Translations under genes and position numbers: made by a program
The notes under the pieces: generated by a model
What the model was told of the DNA's origin: nothing
The model's database searches: none
The model's input: the letters and a program-made list of their open reading frames with translations, nothing else
Assembly (NCBI RefSeq): GCF_024347075.1
Contig: NZ_AP024902.1
Coordinates: 1 to 22,852, forward strand
DNA from: Vibrio rarus
GTDB taxonomy: Bacteria > Pseudomonadota > Gammaproteobacteria > Enterobacterales > Vibrionaceae
Reading direction: 5' to 3'
DNA length: 22,852 bases
Part shown: positions 1 through 22,852 of the stretch, piece after piece
Numbering within the stretch: position 1 is the stretch's first letter
How the letters are laid out: each line of letters opens with the position of its first letter

Positions 1-1368
1 TTCACAGTCAGGACTAGTAATGAAAAAATAGTTATTTGGTCTATTAATAGGCCTACTAGCATTACCTCCTCCAAAAGACTTAACACTGAAGTCTCTCCAT
101 TCTTGAGCTTCCACTTTATAATTCATGTTTGTAAACGAATCTAAGATCATAACTAGACAACTAAACTCATATATAGTAGTTAAGCTTCTCAACCCGTAGA
201 ATACTTCGGTATCGGTAAACACTACATCTCCAAGCTTATACCAATCAAAAATAGCCGTATATATACGTCTATACTGAGCATTCCTCGAAATAAAAGGAGT
301 CATTATTGGTGGTTCAAAACTGGGTTTCCCTGCTTCTTTCATTATGAACGAAAGTTTTTTGTATAGGTTTACAGCCCTTTTCTCTAAGTTTACTACTCTC
401 CGAATAAGATCTTTAACTACTGGCTCTCTATATTGAGAGATAATATTATCAAGGCTAACGTAGTCTAAGTATTCATTGCTGACGGATTCATTTTTGTCAT
501 TATCAACATCAATACTTCTCTTAATAAACTTTAATTTCTGTTGTAGCTGGAACAAATAACTTAAAATAACTCTGTTTTCTTTAATGTTTGCATTTTGGTT
601 AACAACCTCAACAGCACCATCAATCAACTTAGCTGAAAAGTTGTTAATTTTTAGCGTTTGCTCGCTAGAGTCACAAAGAACTATATTACTTTGATTTTGA
701 CTTAGCCAAGTAACACCCTCAGGGGAGTCCGGTACGCCACCTCGTTGTACACTCATCATACGTTCGGGAGTTGTTCTAATTGTCCTTGAAAATATAGGCC
801 AAGACCTCTCAACCGTAGATATACCTTTTTCTGCTTCCTTAATTAGCCTTGATATGTTGCATTCCGTGAGTGCATCCGTATGACTAGCAGCAACCATTGT
901 TCTAGAAAAGCATAAATTAACAACATCACTAAACCTTAGAGATAAATAATCTAACATCTCTCGACTTAATTGCTCATTTTCTTTTGTAGCAAGGACATCA
1001 ACAGTAACTCTAAACACTTTTTTAGCATTGCTAAACTGAACTAGGAACTCCGAAAACCCTGCATTGTTTCTAAAGGGCTGCCCTGTATTAGTCTTGTGAT
1101 TTGTAAATGGGTTTATAAATACTGACTCCCATTTAGTTATACTATGATTAGTATCACTAATACTTTTCAACTCTACAGGAATGTCTCCAATGAAAAGTAG
1201 TGGAATTCCTTGTGTCGTGGAACTGCCAGTCAGAACAAGTTCAAAACTAATATGTGCATCTTCTGGGATTTTGCACGTCCCAGTGACAGGAATGCTTGAC
1301 TCAATCACCAGTATTTCATTGGCATCATAATTCCTATTCTTTTCTATATGGCATATAAGATCAAACAT
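1..1368 (-). CDS. McrC/DUF2357-like nuclease, N-terminal 456 codons (continues at 22852)
   Basis: This is the first part of a restriction-type nuclease subunit, read leftwards from ATG at 1366-1368. The frame stays open for exactly 456 codons to base 1 and continues without a shift at 22852-22376, giving about 614 residues. A Shine-Dalgarno AAGGA overlaps the stop codon of the mcrB-like gene, and only 11 bases separate the two genes, so they are co-transcribed and probably translationally coupled. The N-terminal part is mostly beta-rich and carries no catalytic motif; the PD-(D/E)XK nuclease residues lie in the part beyond the window edge. In McrBC-type systems McrC both cleaves DNA and stimulates the McrB motor; that role is inferred here from the partner gene and the C-terminal motif. 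The family is fairly secure. The substrate, and dependence on methylated DNA, are not shown by the sequence. Confidence 0.85.
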   Translation of the reverse strand, partial: MFDLICHIEKNRNYDANEILVIESSIPVTGTCKIPEDAHISFELVLTGSSTTQGIPLLFIGDIPVELKSISDTNHSITKWESVFINPFTNHKTNTGQPFRNNAGFSEFLVQFSNAKKVFRVTVDVLATKENEQLSREMLDYLSLRFSDVVNLCFSRTMVAASHTDALTECNISRLIKEAEKGISTVERSWPIFSRTIRTTPERMMSVQRGGVPDSPEGVTWLSQNQSNIVLCDSSEQTLKINNFSAKLIDGAVEVVNQNANIKENRVILSYLFQLQQKLKFIKRSIDVDNDKNESVSNEYLDYVSLDNIISQYREPVVKDLIRRVVNLEKRAVNLYKKLSFIMKEAGKPSFEPPIMTPFISRNAQYRRIYTAIFDWYKLGDVVFTDTEVFYGLRSLTTIYEFSCLVMILDSFTNMNYKVEAQEWRDFSVKSFGGGNASRPINRPNNYFFITSPDCE

Positions 1369-1379
1369 ATATAGTTCCT

Positions 1380-3947
1380 TTACACTAAGTATCTATAGCT
1401 ATATAAGTTCTGTTCACCATTACAAATTATATCCTTTAGGATATTTGAACTAATCGGCATGCTATATGACTGTAATATATCTAGAAGGTTTTTTAGGCGA
1501 GTGCCATAACCATCACCATAACCAGAAATCATAGGTAGAATATATTGAGCTATTGCATAATCAAGCGATATGAAATCGTCAAAGTCAATTAGGAGGCTAC
1601 TTGCAACCTCAATATAAGCGTGTATCTGCTTAATTTTACGATGACTGATTATATGACGTTGACCCAACTCTGAGCTATTAATTGAAATGCAGTCAGAAAT
1701 AGCCTTTAAAGCAGAGTTTATATTGCCTGGTAAGTTCGCACCTTTTGCTGAAAACAGATCTAACCAATCCTTCGCTGGGTGTTTTGGCAATAGCAAATCA
1801 ATCTCTTTGCTCAACTTACTATCTGTATTGAATCCGTCAAATAAAATAACAGCAGCTCTATCTAGCATTCTAGGTGATAATGATTGCACTGTTTCGTCTT
1901 GGTTTATTGTACCAATAAATTTGAAATGTTCAGGAACATGTAAGTGCTGTTGTTCTGGGTGACCAGTATAAATAACACGATCCGACTCATTGTCCGCCAA
2001 ATCTAAAAAAGAACTGAAGTAATGTTCCGGTGAACTCAAATTCATTTCGTCCAATAGCAATAATACAGGTAATGAGTTCTCAGGCTGTTCACCTTGTACG
2101 CTATTGAGTAGCCCCCATAATCCAGTAGGGGCTGGGTGGTATGAGCCGCTCAAGCCATTATAGTAACCAAGAATATCTTTCGTGGAAGTCCAAGCCTTAG
2201 CAACTGGTATAGTATGTTGTCGATTCCCTAGTTGCATTGCTTTACCAATGATTTTCACAAGACTTGTTTTCCCACTACCAGGCAACCCTGCAAATATCGT
2301 GAACTGCGACTGTGCCAGAGTAACAACAAGATTAACCACCTGCTCTCTAGATAGGTTTCTATTATATTTGCTTAGCGTAGACTCCATCGCGTCAATGTAG
2401 TCACGACGGGCTGCGTGAGGTGTATCTAGCATACTAATTGGAACAATATTCTTGATATTTGCATCAGGAAAGACATTGTAGGTTTCGTTCTTTGATGATG
2501 GGGTAGTCATTGCTTTAAACAAAGAATGAACTCGAATATATTCATCTGTTAGCTGCTTTGAAGCCGCCGCAATTGAGTTCTCAAGATCTTCCTTTGTTTG
2601 TTCTAACCCGATATTTAACGAGGTCAAACCTGCATGTTCTGATTTGAGTTGAGTATTTTTTGCTTCAAGATCGCTAATTGTTTTGTGTAGTGAATGCTCT
2701 GCTTGGTATCCTTCTAGTTCACTCTTTATCTCTGAGACCTTCTGCTGAAGTTCAGCTTTCTCTTGCTCCAGTTCTTTTCTAACTTTATCTTCGGCTTTCG
2801 CTCGATATTCAGTCTCCATATCAGCTTGTTCTTTGCGCTTTGCGTCGGCATCCAATCCGAGATCTCGGATTGTTGACCTCAATGATTTTTCTTTAAGTGT
2901 AAGCTTAGTTAATTCATCTGATATATTTCGTTCGATGTTTTCAAACGTTTCTTTACGAAACGTCCTAAAATACTCTTCCTCATGTGATGCAATATAGTTC
3001 TCGACCTGCGATTGCCCCTCGACTGATGAAAGGAGGTCTACAAATAATGTTTTCCTATCTTGTTGCCAATCATTAGCTTTTTGTAGCAGTTGAAGCGCTC
3101 GAAACAACCTCGGTTTGTTTTTCTTCGATTTAGAGGCCATGTTGATATTTGCTTTTAGAATCTCAAGACTTTTGGCTGTAAGTCCATTAAAGGGCTTAGC
3201 CTTTAGCAGTTCTGATGCGTACTCTTTTAAAACCTTGGAGTCATCCATAACATCAATACGTTTACCGTGTTTACTAAACTCGTTATGAATGCTTTTAGAA
3301 TTGACCAGAAAAGAATGTGTGTTGCTATGAATATTAGCTTCGACAATATATTTACTTAGACTATGCAGAGGTATCTGATAAGAGTAATAATCAGATAAGT
3401 TTATTCCGGTAATAGGAGTACGTGAAGGTGAAGTAAATACAACATTGACTTGGTGTTCAAATTCGTTCTCTTCAAATTTCCATAAGAACGGCCCAATTAA
3501 TTGAGCTTCTGAGTTATTATCCATGTAAGCCAGCATTACATAGTCTGTAGATGGAGCGTTGTTTAGTGTGGCTTTATAATTGTAGTCATCTGGTATAATT
3601 GGTATATTGATTACTTCCAATAATTGATTTGAAGGCAGTTTTTGGACTCGTAAATAGTCAACTACATTACCTTGTTCCCTGTTTGGATTGTTACTTTTTT
3701 CAGATTCTATTAGAAGCATTTGGCCGTAACTAAATTGTTCCTTTAGGCTTTTGAAGTTACGCGTTACAAACGCTTTTTTGCTATCACAATAATGCCTTTT
3801 AACATTAATTGGAAAAAACTCTGATTCTCCTAAGTCATTCTCAAACTTCTCAAAAGCAACCTCTAATAGCCCGTACCAATCTTCCTCATCATTGCCAGCC
3901 CAAGAATCTCCCAGCACACCAACAACTAACCTAACCTCGTTATCCAT
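1380..3947 (-). CDS. McrB-like AAA+ NTPase with internal coiled coil
   Basis: This is the motor subunit of a McrBC-like defence system. Numbering from an upstream in-frame codon at 3977, residues 1-330 are an unrecognised, probably target-sensing region. Residues 335-480 are rich in Glu, Lys and Gln and read as a long coiled coil. The AAA+ domain follows with Walker A GLPGSGKT (564-571), Walker B LLLLDEMNL (638-646), a sensor stretch GTINQDET (689-696) and SPRMLDR (701-707). The Walker B form with DEMNL is typical of McrB relatives. The MNxxDR signature of classical GTP-using McrB is replaced by INQDET, so the nucleotide may be ATP. I chose the ATG at 3947 because GAGGA stands about nine bases upstream; the codon at 3977 would add ten residues but has no clear ribosome site. 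It is followed at once by the DUF2357-like nuclease gene. The coiled coil next to the motor resembles the coiled-coil branch of McrBC systems, but membership is inference. Confidence 0.87.
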   Translation of the reverse strand: MDNEVRLVVGVLGDSWAGNDEEDWYGLLEVAFEKFENDLGESEFFPINVKRHYCDSKKAFVTRNFKSLKEQFSYGQMLLIESEKSNNPNREQGNVVDYLRVQKLPSNQLLEVINIPIIPDDYNYKATLNNAPSTDYVMLAYMDNNSEAQLIGPFLWKFEENEFEHQVNVVFTSPSRTPITGINLSDYYSYQIPLHSLSKYIVEANIHSNTHSFLVNSKSIHNEFSKHGKRIDVMDDSKVLKEYASELLKAKPFNGLTAKSLEILKANINMASKSKKNKPRLFRALQLLQKANDWQQDRKTLFVDLLSSVEGQSQVENYIASHEEEYFRTFRKETFENIERNISDELTKLTLKEKSLRSTIRDLGLDADAKRKEQADMETEYRAKAEDKVRKELEQEKAELQQKVSEIKSELEGYQAEHSLHKTISDLEAKNTQLKSEHAGLTSLNIGLEQTKEDLENSIAAASKQLTDEYIRVHSLFKAMTTPSSKNETYNVFPDANIKNIVPISMLDTPHAARRDYIDAMESTLSKYNRNLSREQVVNLVVTLAQSQFTIFAGLPGSGKTSLVKIIGKAMQLGNRQHTIPVAKAWTSTKDILGYYNGLSGSYHPAPTGLWGLLNSVQGEQPENSLPVLLLLDEMNLSSPEHYFSSFLDLADNESDRVIYTGHPEQQHLHVPEHFKFIGTINQDETVQSLSPRMLDRAAVILFDGFNTDSKLSKEIDLLLPKHPAKDWLDLFSAKGANLPGNINSALKAISDCISINSSELGQRHIISHRKIKQIHAYIEVASSLLIDFDDFISLDYAIAQYILPMISGYGDGYGTRLKNLLDILQSYSMPISSNILKDIICNGEQNLYSYRYLV

Positions 3948-4202
3948 TGTAAATTTTCCTCGTTTGTTATATGCCATGTAGCTTATAGGAAATAGATGAC
4001 CATAATTACTTAATTACATTACATTTGTGAAAAAACACACAAATAATTTTGGCTCTGGTATAGGCTTTGGATGAAGTATAAGTCTGGGAATAACTCTGAA
4101 GGGGCATTTGTAGTGGATTAGCTAATTAGGTCACATACTCAGATACATATAATAAAGTGATATTGTTAAATTAAATTGAAGAAGGGTGACCTTAAAAGAT
4201 AG
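3948..4202. other. Intergenic region upstream of mcrB-like gene
   Basis: AT-rich stretch between the leftward mcrB-like gene and the methyltransferase remnant. It must hold the leftward promoter, but I see no convincing -35/-10 pair. No gene or strong repeat is visible. Confidence 0.5.
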
Positions 4203-4793
4203 TGGTTGATAAGAGTGGTGCGAATGCGTTAACGCTGCATAATATCAACGTCCAATATTATCAAATCATGATTTTAGGAATAATAGTGATTTAGTGAGAC
4301 GCAGCTTTAAATTGTACCAAGTATTACAGTCTATTGATGATCGAACTATTACTAAGGTTATTTTGCTGTTCTTAAAGGTGGGTCAGATGAACTTAGTGAT
4401 GATGTCTGGGCTATTTGTCGTCCTTTTTCCTATCTTTAACTTGATGGTGCATTGGCTCAGTTCTTAAGTAAACAAGCATTCATTGATTACCTTCTTAGTC
4501 ACCCAACTAAAAAGCAAACTCAAAAGGCCTTAATTGCCGGGTTACCAGCACCAGCCGCTCTTTCTATTCCTGATGATGCTTGTCATTATGATGAGCATGA
4601 ATTTCGCGTTCTGACTGTTAGAGAAATGGCAAGAATTCAATCGTTCCCTGATAACTTTGTATTTAGATCTAAGATAACTACAGGGGGTAAAATGAGAAAG
4701 TTTGAAGTGTCGCAATATACTCAGGTTGGTAATGCTGTTCCTCCGTTACTTGGTATGAAGTTAGGTCGCGTTATTGCTTTTCTGCTCGATTAA
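4203..4793 (+). pseudogene. Broken C5-cytosine DNA methyltransferase (C-terminal remnant)
   Basis: Only the C-terminal end of a Dcm-type DNA (cytosine-5) methyltransferase is left. The intact stretch 4452-4793 carries the family motif IX region REMARIQSFPDNF and the motif X form QVGNAVPPLL. The catalytic PCQ motif, the ENV motif and the AdoMet-binding FxG motif are absent. Upstream the code is damaged: 4261-4370 reads as plausible protein in one frame (SNHDFRNNSDLVRRSFKLYQ and on), then sense continues in another frame as GGSDELSDDVWAICRPFSYL, followed by an in-frame TAA at 4437-4439 and then the intact tail. So there is at least one frameshift, one nonsense codon and a large 5' deletion. It cannot methylate DNA. 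The TTG at 4452 is unlikely to be a real start. The identification of the tail is strong; the upstream limit is approximate. Confidence 0.8.
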
Positions 4794-4985: not shown

Positions 4986-6185
4986 ATGGATCACTCGCAA
5001 ACAACCGCTAGTTTTCAGAACCTAAAACAAGGGGCTGACGAATACATTAAACGTCGTAATTTACGTTTACTGGCTAATAATCGAAAAGAACTACGTAACT
5101 TTACCCGCGCTGAAGCTTCTGCTTATTTAGGTATCGATGCAAAGACGTTGGACAAGTACGTTGTGGCGGCTGAAATCGATCCGCGTCGCCATGAAGACTC
5201 TCAATGGTCTATCGATTTAGAAGAAATGTATGTTGTACGTGGCTTGCTGCCTGAAACTCTGCGTAAAGAGTTGAAGTTTGAACGTTCTGAGAAGCAAAAA
5301 ACGCAAGTGATTGTTATCCAAAACCAAAAAGGTGGTGTTGGTAAAACCGTTTCAGCTGCGACTATTGCCTCTGGTTTAGCGACTGAGTTTCATCAAGAAT
5401 ACCGTGTTGGCTTAATTGATATGGACGGGCAAGCGACTCTTTCCATGTATTACGCCCCTGAAGCTGAGCAAGAAGGCGAGCTTTCGGTTGGTGATTTGAT
5501 GATGGGTAGCTTTGATCTTGATGAAGGTGAAACTCTTCAACAAGTGACTTCTGATGCTTTTCTGCCTACGACGATCCCAAACCTTCGCATTCTTCCTGCT
5601 GCGCAAAGTGATCGTGCAATGGAGGGTTGGTTTCATGAGAGGGTATTTAGCCACAAACTTGCTTCCCCTTACTCGTTATTGAGTGACATCATTGCAAACG
5701 TTCAAGATGAATTTGATATTATTCTTATCGATACGCCCCCTTCCCTTGGTTATGCAACATTCAATGCTTACTTTGCAGCAACTAGCGTTGTGTTTCCGCT
5801 TTCAATCACTGAAAACGATATTGATGCGACTTGTTCTTACTTTAGTTATATTCCGCAAGTATGGGCCTTGCTAGAGAATGCTAATCATGAAGGTTACGAC
5901 TTCATGAAAATCTTGCTCACGAATCATCGTGATAGCTCAACAACTACCGAGCTAATGAACAGTTTGTATGATTACTTTGCCCCATATCTTTACTCTAAAG
6001 AATTTAAGCACAGCGAAGCTATTCGCCAAGCATCTTCCCTACTCTCAACTGTATTTGATATGTCAAAGAGTGAGTACCCAAAGAGCAAAGCAACTTTCCA
6101 AAATGCTCAACAAAATAGCTATGAAGTAACCAGTCAAATTCAGCGCGACATCTTAAATGTGTGGCGTGAGCAGGAGAATAAATAA
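4986..6185 (+). CDS. parA: ParA partition ATPase (type Ia)
   Basis: This is the Walker-type ATPase that positions plasmid copies on the nucleoid together with ParB. From the ATG at 4986 it is 399 residues, the length of P1/F-type ParA. The N-terminal 105 residues carry a helix-turn-helix-like region (RAEASAYLGIDAKTLDKYVV, 41-60) expected to bind the operator. The deviant Walker A is KGGVGKT (115-121), the Walker A' is LIDMDGQATLS (about 143-153) and the Walker B is DIILIDTPPS (244-253). I chose this start because GGAGG lies five bases upstream and the length then matches the family; the frame is open further up to 4848 but only with weak starts. Its stop overlaps the parB start in TAATG. The palindrome at 4814-4847 is the probable control or centromere site. 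Confidence 0.93.
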   Translation: MDHSQTTASFQNLKQGADEYIKRRNLRLLANNRKELRNFTRAEASAYLGIDAKTLDKYVVAAEIDPRRHEDSQWSIDLEEMYVVRGLLPETLRKELKFERSEKQKTQVIVIQNQKGGVGKTVSAATIASGLATEFHQEYRVGLIDMDGQATLSMYYAPEAEQEGELSVGDLMMGSFDLDEGETLQQVTSDAFLPTTIPNLRILPAAQSDRAMEGWFHERVFSHKLASPYSLLSDIIANVQDEFDIILIDTPPSLGYATFNAYFAATSVVFPLSITENDIDATCSYFSYIPQVWALLENANHEGYDFMKILLTNHRDSSTTTELMNSLYDYFAPYLYSKEFKHSEAIRQASSLLSTVFDMSKSEYPKSKATFQNAQQNSYEVTSQIQRDILNVWREQENK

Positions 6186-7255
6186 TGGCTAAAAAACGTG
6201 GCGGTAGCCCTTTAGGAAATGCACCAGGTTCTCAAAATGCTCAGCGTTCCGCAGCTCAAGCAACGGTATCAACCTTAACTCGTCAATTAACTTCTGAACT
6301 TGAAAAATCAGGTCAGAATGCAGCTGAGTTTCTAGCAGAGCAATTTGGTTTAGAGAATGTTGGTCAAACGATGTCATGGAAATTAGCGTCAGGCCAAACG
6401 GCAACGTTTAATGAAGTGACACTGTCATTTGAACATGTTCGTGATAGCACTGTTGTGACCTTTGATATTAACGGTCGTGATCAATCGCTATTAACTAAAG
6501 AATCTCTTGAAGATTTAAGTTCTCTTGAGTTTCAGCAGTTCTACCCCGCTGTTGGCCGTGATGTGAATGGCAAGATTGATGTTCTTGATGGTTCTCGTCG
6601 TCGCGCTTGGTTCTTACTTCAGGAAGGACGTATAAAAGAGTTTCGTATTCTTGTCACTAAAGATGATATTTCAACGGCTGATGCTAAAGCGTTAGCTAAG
6701 CAACTACAGACGGCTAAAGAACATAACCTGCGTGAAATAGGTCTTCAATGCCTATCTATTCAGAGATCAGACGACAAGTTGACTCAAGTTGAAGTAGCAA
6801 AAATTGTTGGGCTAAGCCAAGCAGCTGTTAGCAAAGCAATTAAAGCTGCGTGTGTTGATGAGCGTTTAGTTAATCTTTATCCTGATTCAAATACACTGTC
6901 TCATCCAGATTACACCTTACTTGCAAAAGTAATGAAGGCTTGTAGTGATAAATCTTCAATGAAGAAATTTATTGATAAAATTCAGCGTAATCTTGTCAAT
7001 ATTCAGGCTGAATATTCATTAAAAGAACAGAAGGTTGCCATCTCTTCAGTTATCAAATCTGAATTGAAAATAGCTGAATCTAAACAAGTTTCTGACAAAG
7101 TTGAAGTCACTCCCCTAGCCCAGTTTGACAGCAAAGGGATGTTTGCTCGCAAGAAGGTGAAAGGTCGTAATTTCTCGTATGAATTTGGCCGGTTATCGAA
7201 AGAGGTTCAGACTGAGTTGGATGAGGCTATTAAGAAGGTTCTTGAGAGGCAGTAA
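6185..7255 (+). CDS. parB: ParB partition protein (DNA-binding, SopB/P1-like group)
   Basis: This is the centromere-binding partner of ParA, 356 residues. The order is a flexible N-terminus with a basic start (MAKKRGGS), then the ParB box-II-like stretch VLDGSRRRAW (133-142). A helix-turn-helix follows at about 200-221 (TQVEVAKIVGLSQAAVSKAI), which should recognise parS, and then a helical and basic C-terminal part (KKVKGRNFSYEF) that is probably the dimerisation domain. The start overlaps the last base of parA, so translation is coupled. A hairpin terminator begins 16 bases after the stop. The DGSRRRAW form and the length place it with type Ia plasmid ParBs. The cognate parS cannot be assigned from sequence alone; the palindrome before parA is the best candidate in the window. 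Confidence 0.92.
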   Translation: MAKKRGGSPLGNAPGSQNAQRSAAQATVSTLTRQLTSELEKSGQNAAEFLAEQFGLENVGQTMSWKLASGQTATFNEVTLSFEHVRDSTVVTFDINGRDQSLLTKESLEDLSSLEFQQFYPAVGRDVNGKIDVLDGSRRRAWFLLQEGRIKEFRILVTKDDISTADAKALAKQLQTAKEHNLREIGLQCLSIQRSDDKLTQVEVAKIVGLSQAAVSKAIKAACVDERLVNLYPDSNTLSHPDYTLLAKVMKACSDKSSMKKFIDKIQRNLVNIQAEYSLKEQKVAISSVIKSELKIAESKQVSDKVEVTPLAQFDSKGMFARKKVKGRNFSYEFGRLSKEVQTELDEAIKKVLERQ

Positions 7256-7271
7256 AGGTTACTCAAAAAAT

Positions 7272-7291
7272 GCCAACCTGATTAGGTTGGC
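7272..7291 (+). terminator. Hairpin terminator after parB
   Basis: A perfect 8-bp stem GCCAACCT/AGGTTGGC with loop GATT is followed by GTTTGT and preceded by an A-run (CAAAAAAT). It lies just behind the parB stop and may work in both directions. Confidence 0.8.
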
Positions 7292-7641
7292 GTTTGTAAA
7301 AATATAATAAAGTTATTTATGTCAGTTGGTAGCAGGGGAACTGCCTAGGAACAACTTTATCCGCTCGCAGCCCAATTGTATTTGGAAATTAGTAAGTGTG
7401 TAGTTAGTCTAAATTTTGCGACAAGACCGTATGGTTATATTACTGCAAACCAATTACACTACGGATAAGCAAATACAATCACTGATGAATTACTTATTTC
7501 TGGTTGCTTTTTACTAGCGCTCCTAGGGTATAGCTAAATGTCATACCGTTCTAACTGATTGATTTAATTCTTAACGTACGAAACCGTACTGTGGTGCTTC
7601 TCCCCTAGAAAAGCAAATTGATTTGGCCTTAGGTAGCAGTA
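7292..7641. other. Intergenic leader of the ATPase/STAS operon
   Basis: About 350 bases without a supported gene. It must contain the rightward promoter of the three-gene operon that begins at 7642. A short inverted repeat GTACG-AAAC-CGTAC lies at 7576-7589 and could be an operator, but it is short enough to be chance. I see no clear -35/-10 pair, RNA gene or repeat. Confidence 0.5.
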
Positions 7642-9051
7642 ATGAAGAAAAAAACTATCGTCACCGAATTTCATCGGGTTATCCGATGGAAAAAGCATCT
7701 AAAAGCGTACAATAAGAAACGAAAAGCCAAGAAAGATAGGTTACGTAGGATATTCAAGCAAGATGAGTTATCCTCAGATCGACTAAAGTCCGAGCAGTTT
7801 AAGTTTGAGGGTGCCCGATTACTCAACGAACTAAAGGTGTTAAACCCTCATACTCGACATGCTACAAAACGCGAGATAAAAAAAAGGAAAGTAAATTTTC
7901 CAATAAAAGGCTCATTCGACATTTATGAAGATCCTAACTCCGTATTTAGAACTATTTCGACCTTTAGGCAACTTGCTTTAAACCCCAATATTGATGTCAT
8001 TTATACGATACATGACAGGGCTAATACATGTATGTCTAGTGAAGCTCTTCTTGGAATTGTTGCAGCTGAAGTCAGCGAGTACCGTGGTCAAGTAAAGTGT
8101 CCCGTGAAAATGCATGGGCATATGAAGCAAAGCACTTCGGATAAAGTACTCATTGGAGAAGTAGGTATTGTCGGAGAACTGAATAATGCTGAAATCCATG
8201 GTGGTGTCGGAATCATTAAGCAAAACGTATTTTTGTTCAAAAGTGATAATAAACTTTTTGAATCAGCTAGTTTAAGTGCGGAAGACTATAAAAATGAAAC
8301 AGCAATAGGTTGTATAAAGCAACTTTCAAAAGGCCTCGCACGTTTCGAACTAAGATTAATGGACGGCGTTGAAGATGAGCTTGCAATGTCTCTAGGTGAA
8401 ATTTTAGATAATGCTCAAGAGCATTGCCATCGTACATCACCTAGTTGGTATGTAAGAAGCTTTCTTAATACCGATGATAGTTGTTTACGTTACTTTGAAC
8501 TAATGGTAATGAACTTAGGTCACTCTATAGCTCAGACATTTGAAATGCTCCCAGATACAAGTGCAGCTAAGGCAGATGCTATGAGCTATGCTCGCCGGCA
8601 CTCAAACCTTTTTACAACTGAAGAGCTACTTACTGTTGCAGCTTTACAAGGTAACGTTAGCTCTAAAAAAGATGAAGATATGACTCGTGGGCAAGGAACA
8701 ATCCGTCTCATTGAAACTTTTGAAACTATTTCAAAAGAATTTGTAGAGCTTAGAGGTAGTGGGGACACTAAGAAAAACTGCACGCCAATCATGAACATTA
8801 TTTCTGGTAAAACAGTTATAACATTTAATGGTAAATATAAGTCTAAAATTGTGATTAACGAAGATGGAAGTGAAGATGTTCATATTCCATTTAATCAAGA
8901 AGAGACTCTAAAATTACCACCTGATAGCACTAGCATATCTAGCATGGCTAATACATACTTTCCTGGTGTGATGATTAATATCCGCATTCCTTTAAATGGA
9001 AGAACTAAGACGCTTAAAGGGAACTCACAAGGTATAAATAAATATGTCTAA
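7642..9051 (+). CDS. Bergerat-fold (GHKL) ATPase with basic N-terminus
   Basis: This 469-residue protein has no name I recognise. Residues 1-40 are very rich in Lys and Arg and could bind nucleic acid or membrane. Residues 90-145 (FDIYEDPNSVFRTISTFRQL and on, to MSSEALLGIVAAEV) have the layout of a STAS-like or receiver-type alpha/beta stretch. The C-terminal half has the signs of a GHKL ATPase: N-box LGEILDNAQEH with E253, N257 and H261; a degenerate D-box NLGHSI (291-296); a G2-like RGQGTIRLIETF (349-360); and a closing strand TYFPGVMINIRIPL (438-451). The canonical DxGxG is reduced to NLG, so ATP hydrolysis may be weak or absent. The stop overlaps the next gene by eight bases. GHKL proteins paired with STAS proteins commonly act as partner-switching regulators (anti-sigma/anti-anti-sigma style). 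A role in defence is inference from the plasmid context. Confidence 0.75.
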   Translation: MKKKTIVTEFHRVIRWKKHLKAYNKKRKAKKDRLRRIFKQDELSSDRLKSEQFKFEGARLLNELKVLNPHTRHATKREIKKRKVNFPIKGSFDIYEDPNSVFRTISTFRQLALNPNIDVIYTIHDRANTCMSSEALLGIVAAEVSEYRGQVKCPVKMHGHMKQSTSDKVLIGEVGIVGELNNAEIHGGVGIIKQNVFLFKSDNKLFESASLSAEDYKNETAIGCIKQLSKGLARFELRLMDGVEDELAMSLGEILDNAQEHCHRTSPSWYVRSFLNTDDSCLRYFELMVMNLGHSIAQTFEMLPDTSAAKADAMSYARRHSNLFTTEELLTVAALQGNVSSKKDEDMTRGQGTIRLIETFETISKEFVELRGSGDTKKNCTPIMNIISGKTVITFNGKYKSKIVINEDGSEDVHIPFNQEETLKLPPDSTSISSMANTYFPGVMINIRIPLNGRTKTLKGNSQGINKYV

Positions 9052-9367
9052 TACTCAAAAAATCAATTTGACAAAATTAAATAGCACCCTTTTATCAGGA
9101 AGAAAGAATGGCGAAAGGGCACATGAAAGTATGGCAATTCAATTCAAAGATGCTTATGAGATCATTGCTCGTGATGATCAACTTATCACTAGCTCTTACT
9201 TTCTAGGCCTCATTGGTAAAGAGTTAGTTAAACTTGCCGAACAGCAAGGTTCTATTGATGAGATCATTTCTAAGTTAAACCTAGATAAGCTCAATAAAAA
9301 AAGCCGAGATGAATGTATTCGAGCAGTCAGAAGGAGTATATCTAGTCCAAGAGCTCTAATTGGTTGA
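9044..9367 (+). CDS. Small STAS-like (DUF4325-like) protein
   Basis: This 107-residue cytoplasmic protein starts inside the stop region of the GHKL ATPase gene (ATGTCTAA overlap), so the two are coupled. It follows the pattern of STAS-like DUF4325 proteins: an N-terminal LLSGRKNGERAHE (16-28), a central LITSSYFLGLIGKELVKL (47-64) at the place of the family's SF-E-L-G helix, and a C-terminal LNKKSRDECIRAVRRSI (83-99). Such proteins are often found beside GHKL ATPases and are thought to be their binding partner or substrate. The usual VDF strand before the SF motif is weak here (EIIARDDQL), so assignment by eye is moderate. The likely partner is the upstream ATPase. The downstream membrane protein starts after six bases. 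Confidence 0.6.
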   Translation: MSNTQKINLTKLNSTLLSGRKNGERAHESMAIQFKDAYEIIARDDQLITSSYFLGLIGKELVKLAEQQGSIDEIISKLNLDKLNKKSRDECIRAVRRSISSPRALIG

Positions 9368-9373
9368 TTAATT

Positions 9374-10021
9374 ATGAGATTATTTTTATTCATTCTCACT
9401 TTAGTTCATTCTAATGTATTTGCTAGTCCTGCTGAAAAACCTTTAACACCAGATAGTGAGCTATCTAGAGCAAAGAGTACACAGGTAGAAGATACAACAA
9501 GTCAAAAATCTAAAAACGATATCAGTTCTCAAGTAGAAGATAAAAATCCGTCTTCTAAAGAAAAAAAAGAGACAGAAGGCTTTATTAGTTTTTCAGATAT
9601 GATCGCAATTCTCGCTGTGATACTGTCAAGTGGTTCTATGCTCTATACCTATAGTATAGACTCTATCAACCGTAAAGCTTCTATTCATGATGAATACTGG
9701 ATGAGGGAAGTTATCTATCCAATCTTTATGCAATCATTCATTGAGTTTATCAAGAGATCTCCGAACGAATTTAGAGCATCGCAAGGGGATATGCCTCTTT
9801 TTGTTGAGTGTTATGCGTTAGATGAACTAAACAAGATTCGTGATAATACAATTTTTCTTTACACAATCGATAAAAGTTTCCCAGAAAAAGCTGAAAAATT
9901 CATTGATGACTTCGAAGATGCTTTGGGTGAAGTATCTGATTACCTAGGATTTAAGGAAGCTTTAGCTATGGTTTCAAGAGATATAATTACTCTCCTTAAG
10001 TCCGCACAAGAAAAAGTCTAA
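9374..10021 (+). CDS. Single-pass membrane protein, third gene of the ATPase/STAS operon
   Basis: This 215-residue protein is of no family I recognise. It begins with a signal-peptide-like segment (MRLFLFILTLVHSNVFA, 1-17). A polar, low-complexity Ser/Lys/Glu/Thr linker runs to about residue 73. One membrane helix follows at about 76-96 (DMIAILAVILSSGSMLYTY), and then a C-terminal domain of about 115 residues starting INRKASIHDEYWMREVIYPI. If the signal is cleaved, the linker lies in the periplasm and the C-terminal domain in the cytoplasm, where it could meet the ATPase and STAS protein. It starts six bases after the STAS gene and a hairpin follows its stop, so it closes the operon. By layout it could be the membrane effector of the group; that is inference. 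Confidence 0.65.
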   Translation: MRLFLFILTLVHSNVFASPAEKPLTPDSELSRAKSTQVEDTTSQKSKNDISSQVEDKNPSSKEKKETEGFISFSDMIAILAVILSSGSMLYTYSIDSINRKASIHDEYWMREVIYPIFMQSFIEFIKRSPNEFRASQGDMPLFVECYALDELNKIRDNTIFLYTIDKSFPEKAEKFIDDFEDALGEVSDYLGFKEALAMVSRDIITLLKSAQEKV

Positions 10022-10041
10022 TCTTTTGATGGTTGTTTATG

Positions 10042-10071
10042 TGTAGTGGCTGAATGAATTTGGCCACTACA
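10042..10071 (+). terminator. Hairpin after the three-gene operon
   Basis: A perfect 9-bp stem TGTAGTGGC/GCCACTACA with a 12-base loop, 20 bases behind the stop at 10021. The T-run is poor (ATTAG), so it may be a weak or Rho-assisted terminator. Confidence 0.6.
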
Positions 10072-10284
10072 TTAGAGATTTGCAACACCTCGGCTAATCC
10101 GTTAACTGCTAATTTAGCGAACGCTGTAGCTCATTTCTGTCCAGAGACGTGTACACCCCTAAATTTTGTAGCATTGTAACCTAGCTTAAAACAAAAGTAA
10201 TCTGGACTATTTTTCAGGCATAACACACCCAGTTATTATGAGATATTATTCAAACTGAAAATATTACTCATAGTGGATATGTAA

Positions 10285-11001
10285 ATGATGACAAAGACGG
10301 CTTTACTCGCTCTTACTATATTTTGTATTGCTACCCCTACTTCCTTTGCCGGTGATCTTATCAAGATGTCATCAAGCAAAATTTGTCACGACACTAATTC
10401 GCCATCGTACAACCGCACGAAGAACTTCATACCTTACAATTCAATGGAAGAGTGTTTAGATTCAGGTGGGCATTTACCCAAAAATGCTAATAACACAAGC
10501 AAGGGGCAATCTACCTCTAATTCAAAATACAGTCGTAGTCAGTTTGGTTCTGGCTGGGCTGATACTGACAAAGATTGCCAGAACTCACGTATGGAAGCCT
10601 TAATCGCTCAATCTGTATCACCGGTTAAATTTAAGTCTAACAAAGGCTGCCGTGTCATATCTGGACGCTGGAACTCACCTTACTCTGGTAAAACAATATA
10701 TAAAGCCTCTGAAATCGATATTGATCATGTCGTACCGCTTAAATGGGCCTGGGACCATGGCGCAGATCAGTGGTCAAAAAAGAAAAGAATTGAAATTGCT
10801 AATAATCCTGCGAATTTACTGAGCGTTGAGGCTTCTTTAAACCGCCAGAAAGGTGCTAAAGGTCTTGATGAGTGGCTGCCACCAAAGAACCAGTGCCAAT
10901 ACATTGCTAGATTTGAGCGTGTGCGTAAAACCTATGGCTTAAAGTTAAGTACTTCTGAAAAGAGTAAGTTTGCGGCCATTAAGCAAAAGCATTGCAGATA
11001 G
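10285..11001 (+). CDS. Secreted HNH endonuclease (DUF1524-type)
   Basis: This 238-residue exported nuclease has a signal peptide at 1-22, with cleavage expected after TSFA. A small Cys-containing N-terminal segment (C34, C57) precedes the nuclease domain. The catalytic core is IDIDHVVPLKWAW (144-156) with D147-H148. It is followed by NNPANLLSVEASLNRQKGAK (173-192), with the N177 and N186 positions of HNH nucleases, and then DEWLPP (195-200). These are hallmarks of the DUF1524/GmrSD-C-terminal-like HNH family. Six Cys in the mature part (34, 57, 98, 122, 204, 237) fit disulfides in the periplasm or outside. It stands alone between two hairpins, with its own upstream region of about 260 bases. 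It could degrade extracellular or incoming DNA, for nutrition, entry exclusion or competition; the sequence does not decide which. Two ATGs stand side by side at the start. Confidence 0.85.
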   Translation: MMTKTALLALTIFCIATPTSFAGDLIKMSSSKICHDTNSPSYNRTKNFIPYNSMEECLDSGGHLPKNANNTSKGQSTSNSKYSRSQFGSGWADTDKDCQNSRMEALIAQSVSPVKFKSNKGCRVISGRWNSPYSGKTIYKASEIDIDHVVPLKWAWDHGADQWSKKKRIEIANNPANLLSVEASLNRQKGAKGLDEWLPPKNQCQYIARFERVRKTYGLKLSTSEKSKFAAIKQKHCR

Positions 11002-16112: not shown

Positions 16113-16721
16113 ATGAGTCATTATGCTTATCTACGAGTGTCATCTGATAGCCAAGATGTTGCCAACCAAAAACATGGTATTTATGAATACTGCAATATGA
16201 TTGGTATTGGTGACATTTGTTTTATCGAAGACGTTGTTACCGGTAAGAAGAAATGGAAGGACCGTAAATTAGGTGCCTTGCTCAGTACCTTACAAAAAGA
16301 CGATAAATTGGTCTTTGCGGAAGTGAGTCGTATTGCGCGTTCAACTCTTCAGGTTCTTGAAGTCCTAGAGTTCTGCATGGAACATGGGATTAATGTTTAT
16401 ATAGCGAAACAAAATATGCAGCTCGATGGCTCTATGCAGTCACGAATCACGGCGACTATTCTTGGTCTTGCTGCTGAAATTGAACGTGAATTTATTTCAA
16501 TGCGAACAAAAGAAGCATTAGCCGCTCGTCGTAAGAACGGTGTCACCCTGGGTAGACCTAAAGGGCAATCCCAATCTTTGAAGCTTGACTCTAAACGTGA
16601 CCAAATTGAAAAATACCTGGCAATAGGGTTAGGTGTCAGACCAATCGCAAAGCTCATCGAAGAATCTCCTAGCACACTTTATGATTATGTTAAGCGCAAA
16701 GAACTGTCCAAAAAGGTGTAA
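16113..16721 (+). CDS. Serine recombinase (resolvase/invertase family), first copy
   Basis: This 202-residue small serine recombinase has its nucleophile S10 in YLRVSSDSQD and arginines R8, R73 and R76 (EVSRIARS). The long E-helix region is LAAEIEREFISMRTKEALAAR, and GVTLGRPKG leads to a C-terminal helix-turn-helix (VRPIAKLIEESPSTLYDYVK). A good AAGGAG stands before the ATG. It lies 35 bases behind the helicase-like gene and may be partly co-transcribed with it. Such enzymes resolve plasmid multimers or invert DNA. It is clearly different from the second copy downstream, so the pair did not arise by recent duplication. The target site may be the inverted repeats at 16722-16835. Confidence 0.9.
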   Translation: MSHYAYLRVSSDSQDVANQKHGIYEYCNMIGIGDICFIEDVVTGKKKWKDRKLGALLSTLQKDDKLVFAEVSRIARSTLQVLEVLEFCMEHGINVYIAKQNMQLDGSMQSRITATILGLAAEIEREFISMRTKEALAARRKNGVTLGRPKGQSQSLKLDSKRDQIEKYLAIGLGVRPIAKLIEESPSTLYDYVKRKELSKKV

Positions 16722-16835: not shown

Positions 16836-17384
16836 ATGAAGATTGGCTATGCTCGCGTCAGTTCCGACGAACAAACTCTTGATGTTCAAGTTGAGCAGCT
16901 GGCTAAAGTCGGCTGTGAGAAAATATTTAAAGAGAAAGCCAGTGGTAAGTCTGCCGAACGTGAAGAACTTGAGCGGTTAATTGAGTTTGCACGAGAAGGC
17001 GACATTGTTCATATCACCAAAGTTGATCGTATTGCACGTAATACAATCGATGCACTTCAAATCGCAGATAAACTCTCAGAGAAAAAAGCCGGCTTAGTCT
17101 TTCATGATCTAGGTGAGCTAGACATTAACAGTGATGTTGGCCGGGTTATCTATACAACCATTTCTGCTTTTGCAGAAATGGAAAGGAAACGAATATTACA
17201 ACGCTGCAATGAGGGTCGGGAACGCGCGAAAGAGCAGGGGAGGCATCTCGGACGATTTCCTGATCAGCAGCTTCACAATCGCATACGTGAGTTGTCAAAG
17301 CAGGGTTTAAATAAGAATGCCATCAGTAAAGAAGTAGGGTGTAGCCGGACGACTGTTTATAAGGTTTTGGCTCAAGATAAATAG
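16836..17384 (+). CDS. Serine recombinase (Tn3-type resolvase family), second copy
   Basis: This 182-residue resolvase has its catalytic Ser S9 in GYARVSSDEQTLD, R7, and R65/R68 in KVDRIARNT. The E-helix is ISAFAEMERKRILQRCNEGR, and the C-terminal helix-turn-helix NKNAISKEVGCSRTTVYKVL matches Tn3/gamma-delta resolvases in length and order. It probably resolves plasmid dimers at the sites just upstream. The next gene starts about ten bases behind its stop, an operon-like spacing that ties the ADP-ribosyltransferase-like protein to it. No transposase or terminal repeats of a Tn3 element are visible, so it is not obviously part of a transposon. Confidence 0.92.
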   Translation: MKIGYARVSSDEQTLDVQVEQLAKVGCEKIFKEKASGKSAEREELERLIEFAREGDIVHITKVDRIARNTIDALQIADKLSEKKAGLVFHDLGELDINSDVGRVIYTTISAFAEMERKRILQRCNEGRERAKEQGRHLGRFPDQQLHNRIRELSKQGLNKNAISKEVGCSRTTVYKVLAQDK

Positions 17385-22375: not shown

Positions 22376-22852
22376 TCAAAGCGCTAATTTATCCATCAGC
22401 AATTGAAGTTGCCCTTGAAACATGACCTGCTTAGAAGGTCTTAAGTTAATCCCTCCAAGTGAGGGGAGCAACGGTGTTTGGCCTGATAGACAATGCTCTT
22501 CAGCATAGAAACTAGAATTTACAAGCTGTTTTCCTCGCTTGGGATACAACGCCCACACTGCTTGGGTTGGAAGCCGACCAAGGCTCCCATCTTGACCGAT
22601 TTGATGTATACCAAAAAAATAACGACTGATTAATTTATCCAAAGAGTAATTCTGCACTGAAGATGCAGGTGAGTACTTAGCATCAAAGATCAATAAATCA
22701 GAGTTTTTCTTATTCCTCCACTTCACTTTCAACAGAAAGTCCGGAGACAAGTGGTGCTCATCGAAGTGTTGATGTTCTGCTAAAACAACAACTGGATCTC
22801 CTATATTTGAATAGCATTTTCGCCAAATCTTAGGCTCGTAGTACATTTCAAT
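22376..22852 (-). CDS. McrC/DUF2357-like nuclease, C-terminal 158 residues (continued from base 1)
   Basis: This is the end of the nuclease gene that begins at 1368. Base 22852 takes up the frame left at base 1 (codons GAA, then ATT GAA ATG), so the ATG at 22846 is an internal Met (residue 459) and not a start. This part has the PD-(D/E)XK core: SPDFLL with P493-D494, then LLIFDAKYS with D513 and K515, and an upstream Glu in YYEPKIW (E462). That spacing is the pattern of DUF2357/McrC-type nucleases, so the enzyme looks catalytically complete. The tail is LQLLMDKLAL. It forms one system with the mcrB-like gene. Confidence 0.87.
   Translation of the reverse strand: MEMYYEPKIWRKCYSNIGDPVVVLAEHQHFDEHHLSPDFLLKVKWRNKKNSDLLIFDAKYSPASSVQNYSLDKLISRYFFGIHQIGQDGSLGRLPTQAVWALYPKRGKQLVNSSFYAEEHCLSGQTPLLPSLGGINLRPSKQVMFQGQLQLLMDKLAL

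Follow-up and report, generated by a model that had tools for sequence, protein, structure and literature searches.

A conserved and mobile operon of the VapKSC kind with a membrane protein as third gene on a plasmid of Vibrio rarus

The stretch of DNA analysed here, called the window, comprises 22,852 nucleotides of Vibrio rarus (contig NZ_AP024902.1 of assembly GCF_024347075.1, positions 1 to 22,852) and carries an operon of three genes on its forward strand. Gene 1 (7642..9051, +; 469 aa), as judged by the open reading frame call and its profile matches, encodes a putative protein with a basic N-terminus, a STAS-like N-terminal domain and a GHKL kinase-like domain; gene 2 (9044..9367, +; 107 aa) encodes a predicted DUF4325-like, that is STAS-like, partner with an invariant Ser50-Ser51 pair (AlphaFold2, Foldseek, alignment), and gene 3 (9374..10021, +; 215 aa) a candidate membrane effector, for which model and hydropathy indicate a signal-like N-terminus, a variable linker, one transmembrane helix and a helical cytosolic domain. 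Genes 1 and 2 overlap by 8 bases, and 6 bases separate genes 2 and 3. Two inverted repeats enclose the operon, one lying between parB and gene 1 at 7268..7295 (12-nt arms with 4 nt spacing, the same stem being also called terminator-like on the minus strand) and the other 3' of gene 3 at 10042..10071 (14-nt arms with 2 nt spacing, 86% complementary). An earlier note on this DNA had described an operon with these junctions, hairpins on both sides, a highly basic N-terminus of the first protein, a small STAS-like partner, a signal-bearing single-pass membrane protein and McrBC-like genes on the same plasmid; the open reading frame calls, the inverted repeats, the residue counts, the model of gene 2 with its database matches, the hydropathy of gene 3 and the McrBC-like pair located on the contig agree with this description.

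The three genes form a conserved unit. All 14 distinct loci, among them the window, have them in the same order and on the same strand; the junctions between the genes are overlaps of up to 17 bases or gaps of up to 12, and internal stops are absent from the parts of the genes that were read. The earlier note had named rare adjacency of the homologues as an outcome that would speak against its proposal; the genes proved to be adjacent throughout, in copies carried by mobile elements and at a defence hotspot known from the literature. Searches with gene 1 (tblastn) yielded five plasmid records, one and then two loci on viral contigs (one of them new), five genome contigs and, in the genome searches, one more place beyond the own genome. 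Gene 3 alone returned the same five plasmid records as gene 1, while gene 2 alone and gene 3 alone gave four loci each in the viral searches, together five contigs, each holding all three genes; every place found with gene 2 or gene 3 only was either already known from gene 1 or bore the complete trio. Redundant rows were merged (L011, L017 and L021 with L005; L019 and L023 with L012; L022 with L018; L016 with the window; L020 with L009 on account of identical encoded proteins), and two further Pantoea records (H3, H4), which show the same match as H2, were left aside. Hosts of the trio are plasmids, prophages and large contigs of several Gammaproteobacteria. The lowest identities to the window among the 10 aligned relatives are 25% (gene 1), 29% (gene 2) and 19% (gene 3). 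The trio is rare, being present in 1 of 394 genomes of the order (the own genome only) and in 2 of 369 genomes of the class (the own genome and G819).

Profile comparison (hhalign) indicates that gene 1 is homologous to the STAS-GHKL kinases of the VapK type. Against a VapK-type subset (L027, L029, L068, L069) its profile gave E 3.7e-7 and a probability of 92.9 over residues 82-363, an alignment which covers the N-terminal STAS-like domain, and against 19 GHKL relatives (18 from loci with GHKL and DUF4325 genes and one phrog_3364 match) it gave E 1.1e-10 and a probability of 97.0 over residues 81-456. Gene 1 itself matches phrog_3364 at E 2.5e-10. No Pfam family was matched at a useful score; HATPase_c_2 was weakly touched by three of the 11 aligned members (best E 0.0098), and the search of these members for helix-turn-helix (HTH) families at E 1 yielded one weak HTH_56 match (E 0.13) and no other. 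The N-terminus of gene 1 contains 18 Lys or Arg among residues 1-45, with a net charge of +14. For the 13 trio kinases with a complete sequence the net charge of this stretch lies between +7 and +22, against -6 to +6 for four proteins of the VapK type; the record of L004 begins within gene 1, which could therefore be read only partially. In the N box, placed by alignment at residues 249-261 (8386..8424, +), E253 and N257 are invariant across the 11-row alignment, and all 14 trio kinases preserve the complete pattern E-x3-N-x2-H, which ends on H261, together with the G2-type GxG. The G1 box, placed by box comparison at residues 287-298 (8500..8535, +), carries N291 in place of the usual Asp.

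For gene 2, the AlphaFold2 model (predicted local distance difference test score, pLDDT, 90.9; predicted template modelling score, pTM, 0.84) points to a DUF4325 (STAS-like) fold. Foldseek found six matches in BFVD at E <= 0.001 (best E 2.7e-6, TM score 0.74), and those named DUF4325 have E 3.8e-4 and 8.5e-4 with a probability of 1.00. The model holds STAS-like elements only and no DNA-binding domain. The motif SS[YF]F is kept in all 14 trios with Ser50 and Ser51 invariant, and in the model these two residues open the helix 50-68; S54 of CapS and S48 of VapS occupy a comparable place in their STAS domains (PMC13373217). DUF4325-fold proteins are also encoded by phages (BFVD A0A223LC21 of Bacillus phage PBS1, A0A8D9CC01 and A0A2D2W734), and such proteins might mimic a restraining partner and counter switches of this kind.

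In the model of gene 3, a signal-like helix (residues 2-16) is followed by residues modelled at low confidence, by a long helix that runs from residue 73 and bears the membrane segment, and by three further helices. Each of the 14 gene 3 proteins has one membrane segment besides the N-terminus in the hydropathy scan; that of L008 lacks a clear signal, and that of L024 was read from one codon downstream of its likely start. Residues 13-68, ahead of the transmembrane helix, are predicted to be disordered (pLDDT < 50), and the protein varies in length from 161 to 280 aa across the trios; we therefore argue that the conserved transmembrane and cytosolic part, in which the invariant residues W109, R111 and P116 are placed, is the working end of the protein. 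At E 1, Pfam shows PIN in none of 11 gene 3 proteins; among the five third genes of the VapC type, the same library recognises it in four.

L005 and L018 are prophages which hold the trio between CI repressor (Phage_CI_repr, E 3e-20 and 9e-20, Phage_CI_C being matched as well) and integrase (Phage_integrase, 2e-19 and 9e-25); the best matches of both integrases and of the L018 repressor are Vibrio phages. The stretch from cI to the integrase of K139-like P2 phages in Vibrionaceae has been described as an antiviral hotspot (Rousset and colleagues, PMC9122126), and the systems which its passage on this hotspot names are restriction-modification, Septu, Helicase+DUF2290 and PARIS; the words 'GHKL' and 'STAS' are absent from its main text. 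What the trio shares with these systems is the genomic position of L005 and L018, as judged by their placement between cI and integrase. The DNA on either side of the L018 trio (5888-6558 and 9000-10724) shares 94% and 97% identity with Vibrio phage 10N.286.54.F4_PE002. In L018 the trio (6615-8889) fills the space between these flanks, and in the phage this place is taken by a p47-like and a DUF3427 gene. In Vibrio phage L9-1, the genes that separate cI from the integrase include one for a cytosine methyltransferase. The p47-like and DUF3427 cargo (L127, PQ189357.1 29900-36100, at 667-3595) is itself a candidate defence cargo. Elsewhere, the trio lies between integrase and tail-tip genes at a prophage edge (L009), upstream of a terminase (L012), between tyrosine recombinases adjoining parAB (L003), on small MobA-bearing plasmids or contigs (L004, L007), near transposase-like open reading frames as judged by eye (L002), and on contigs of 1.5-2.1 Mb (L006, L010). 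Neighbours with a flavour of defence are a KAP NTPase in L008 (E 2.8e-43) and a sub-threshold Abi_alpha match in L010 (E 0.0014).

GHKL kinases that act on a serine of a STAS protein are familiar from the partner switches SpoIIAB/SpoIIAA and RsbW/RsbV, in which the third partner is a sigma factor; the third partner in the trio, in contrast, is a membrane protein of the same operon. The nearest named system is VapKSC, with a membrane protein in place of the nuclease. The switch principle of CapKS and VapKSC was published in EMBO J in 2026 (PMC13373217), the only abstract on GHKL-STAS pairs in immunity among the literature found. According to this paper, VapC is inhibited by the binding of VapS, whose serine lies hidden where STAS protein and toxin meet; single-stranded DNA activates the kinase, the phosphomimic S48E frees the toxin, and the vapKSC operon confers about 2-log protection against phage Bas42. 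VapKSC and the trio both comprise three genes in the same order, with a STAS-GHKL kinase (that of VapKSC being homologous to gene 1), a small STAS protein with a conserved Ser/Thr, an effector, in the trio a candidate, as third partner and linkage to defence genes; they differ in the third gene, a PIN nuclease there and a helical membrane protein here, and in the basic N-terminus and the Asn of the G1 box of the trio kinase. CapK and CapS likewise are a STAS-GHKL kinase and a STAS substrate with a conserved serine, but CapK has an N-terminal HTH, and CapS has a winged HTH and represses transcription, whereas gene 2 is a lone STAS-like domain followed by a membrane gene (in the CapKS-like pair L036, the STAS partner matches MarR_2 below the Pfam cut-off). 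The published vapKSC census covered loci with vapC, and the word 'transmembrane' is absent from the main text. In the literature searched, no title or abstract naming a GHKL-STAS-membrane operon was found; most subscription papers lay outside this literature, so that the absence is unproven.

Operons that combine a GHKL gene with a clear DUF4325 gene gave a wider view. DUF4325 searches were positive in 6 of 148, 28 of 398 and 39 of 274 genomes, with 6, 29 (plus L027 again) and 30 places to which a locus was assigned, 15 rows of the third search without locus being left out. Setting aside 30 places with an open frame > 300 aa, which were taken as GHKL-STAS fusions (L025 alone of these was read), a fragment at a contig edge (L030) and three GHKL-STAS single chains (L098, L103, L105), 31 places were read. 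A GHKL gene stands directly upstream of DUF4325 in 22 of them, and the third gene of these pairs is membrane-helical in 11 (L026, L028, L064, L067, L070, L078, L081, L083, L085, L101, L117), helical without a transmembrane segment in one (L079), PIN-like in five (L027, L029, L068, L069, L111) and not recognised in five (L062, L075, L077, L087, L115). A hydropathy scan underlies the membrane calls except that of L026, which was made by reading; PIN calls were above the Pfam cut-off in three cases, below it in L069 and made by eye in L029. The PIN-type operons have the make-up of the published VapKSC, and the membrane type outnumbers the VapC type in this sample (11 vs 5 of 22 pairs). These membrane operons of a second type are widespread, and no name for them was found in the literature searched. 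Those represented by L064, L067, L101, L117 and L121, a Vibrio alfacsensis plasmid, share the architecture and gene order of the trio, and their third protein is membrane-anchored with a helical cytosolic part, the transmembrane segment beginning within the first 9 residues in seven of ten measured. The basic N-terminus of the kinase is present in L064, L067 and L083 (net +12 to +15) and not in L028 and L070. They differ from the trio in having a partner that is a clear Pfam DUF4325, a G1 box that keeps Asp and a third protein in which no homology to gene 3 was detected. Of four plasmid relatives of this type, one adjoins MazEF-type genes, one a RelE-type pair and one an insertion sequence element, and the fourth comes right behind an XRE regulator in a neighbourhood of phage-type genes; the hydrophobic N-terminal segment of the third protein has a hydropathy of 1.65 in L121, 2.31 in L124 and, weaker, 1.47 in L126, and was recognised by eye in L125. 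DUF4325/STAS and GHKL also occur in one chain, in L025, L098, L103, L105 and about 29 further places > 300 aa (four were read), and these proteins are perhaps the same switch within a single protein.

Taking these data together, we lean, with somewhat better than even confidence, towards the operon being a mobile switch of the CapKS/VapKSC kind, triggered by stress or phage and equipped with a membrane effector. What the analysis shows is that the three genes form a unit, that gene 1 is homologous to the kinases, that gene 2 has a STAS-like fold with its serines in position, that gene 3 has the predicted membrane topology, and that copies lie on mobile elements and in a defence hotspot. The exchange of third genes among the GHKL+DUF4325 pairs speaks for the switch as well. 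As for the mechanism, we infer that at rest gene 2 would bind the helical cytosolic domain of gene 3 and so keep this inner-membrane protein inactive. Gene 1, activated, to judge by analogy, by single-stranded DNA or by something else that arises during phage infection or DNA damage, would then act on the pair Ser50/Ser51 in gene 2, most probably phosphorylating it, upon which gene 2 would release gene 3. The freed, presumably toxic protein would harm or shut down the membrane, and growth would stop before phage is made, which would constitute the anti-phage activity. The earlier note had similarly suggested that the ATPase/STAS pair controls a membrane effector, an idea which fits the kinase homology, the STAS-like fold and the conserved unit and is in part supported; its label of a Bergerat-fold ATPase for gene 1 misses the exchange in the G1 box. 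Its term of a candidate new system has to be moderated, the principle of the switch being already published as CapKS/VapKSC and membrane operons of the second type being widespread, although no name for them was found in the literature searched.

Several observations weigh against a switch of this kind. Neither Pfam nor NCBIfam offers a family that gene 3 matches at a useful score, it bears no toxin signature, and no homology was detected between it and the membrane proteins of the commoner GHKL-DUF4325 operon type. In PADLOC-DB 2.0.0 (2023), genes 1 and 2 were unmatched at E 1 and gene 3 met only Csn2 (E 0.0047), while none of the INPHARED phage records matches gene 1 or gene 2. The link of gene 2 to DUF4325 is faint at the level of sequence families: neither gene 2 nor its 10 aligned relatives match Pfam DUF4325 (PF14213) at E 1, the DUF4325 search of the own genome at E 0.001 misses it, its profile matched a mixed DUF4325/STAS set weakly (probability 14.2, E 0.0019) and the VapS-type and membrane-type subsets more weakly still (probabilities 2.1 and 0.3), and Foldseek against the PDB gave E 0.34 at best. 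A further point concerns the G1 box, the first residue of which in GHKL proteins is normally an Asp that reads adenine. This position is Asn in 14 of 14 trio kinases and Asp in 24 of 24 relatives (the 22 GHKL+DUF4325 pairs, L035 and L036), and the second Gly of the box is Ser or Thr in the trio kinases, Thr being found there among the relatives in L083 as well. We take D79 of Hsp90 to be the Asp that matches this position in gene 1. In Hsp90, the exchange D79N is described as blocking ATP binding (PMC12280139). Ordinary ATP kinase activity of the trio kinases therefore cannot be assumed; they may have altered ATP binding, use another nucleotide or act without phosphotransfer, and the Asn is the main evidence against regarding the trio as a plain copy of VapKSC.

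The alternatives that have to be weighed partly overlap with one another and with the membrane-effector switch, and the likelihoods we attach to them are not meant to sum to one. The same Asn, together with the described effect of D79N, would suit gene 1 being a pseudokinase or binding another nucleotide, so that binding and not ATP-driven phosphorylation would move gene 2 on and off gene 3; however, the N box and the GxG are kept in all trio kinases and the serine pair of gene 2 is invariant, as expected if phosphotransfer or its site still matters, and we consider this version unlikely. In a bolder form, the Asn would have re-tuned the pocket of gene 1 to a guanine base or to a nucleotide that infection has modified; gene 1 would itself sense a change in the nucleotide pool and free the membrane effector via gene 2, and the trio would found a membrane-effector branch of kinase-STAS immunity that does without an ordinary ATP kinase. 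This form appears distinctly improbable to us. Gene 3 might instead be the sensor, responding to phage entry or membrane stress and feeding a gene 1/gene 2 pair that acts elsewhere, for example on transcription. Its signal-like N-terminus and the expected periplasmic location of the stretch ahead of the membrane would agree with this, as would the control of transcription by the GHKL/STAS pair of CapKS, reported in PMC13373217, but the stretch in question is predicted to be disordered and its length differs much between the trios, the invariant residues W109, R111 and P116 are cytosolic, gene 3 of L008 has a transmembrane segment already at 23-41, and the model of gene 2 offers no domain with which to bind DNA; a sensor role seems rather unlikely.

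A stabilisation or toxin-antitoxin cassette, in which gene 2 would be the antitoxin of the membrane toxin gene 3, loss of the cassette would kill the cell and protection against phage would be incidental, also has arguments in its favour in that the trio stands beside parAB in the window and in L003, is carried by small mobilisable plasmids (L004, L007) and has second-type relatives adjoining MazEF-type and RelE-type genes. A plain addiction module, however, needs no kinase-like gene with a conserved basic N-terminus, and copies of the trio are found in the prophage swap site and on contigs of megabase size (L006, L010) as well. The parAB genes of the contig (4848-7255, upstream of the trio) resemble those of Vibrio and Shewanella plasmids, but in the ten matches listed among the 36 plasmid records that match the window the alignment is confined to parAB, and in two of the records sharing it that were opened no trio is annotated after parB. 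We hold such a cassette to be quite improbable.

The plasmid carries further genes of interest. An McrBC-like pair consists of a gene at 1380-3977 (-) and a second one running across the contig ends (1368..1 and 22852..22376, -), as expected for a circular plasmid; the AAA protein of this two-gene operon matches the PADLOC candidate PDC-M26A (E 8.8e-36). Directly beyond the trio, the product of 10285-11001 (+) bears a signal and a GmrSD_C domain (Pfam E 5.4e-13) and is probably a secreted nuclease separate from the trio. A 113-aa open reading frame at 4452-4793 (+), whose Pfam match is limited to the C-terminal end of C-5 cytosine DNA methylases, reads as a gene remnant or a mis-started gene, and two resolvase genes (Pfam Resolvase) lie near each other at 16113-16721 and 16836-17384 (+).

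The trio is a real, conserved and mobile three-gene unit that belongs with VapKSC in kind and departs from it in its candidate effector and in the unusual pocket of its kinase, and it raises the question which nucleotide is used, and which signal sensed, by a GHKL kinase whose G1 box carries Asn. Should the membrane-effector switch prove true, operons annotated only as hypothetical, 'STAS-like' or DUF4325 in the opened plasmid records would gain a testable mechanism. The kinase-STAS switch of VapKSC would then be a general platform with interchangeable outputs, of which membrane proteins, in two families without detectable kinship, would be the commonest among the sampled pairs.

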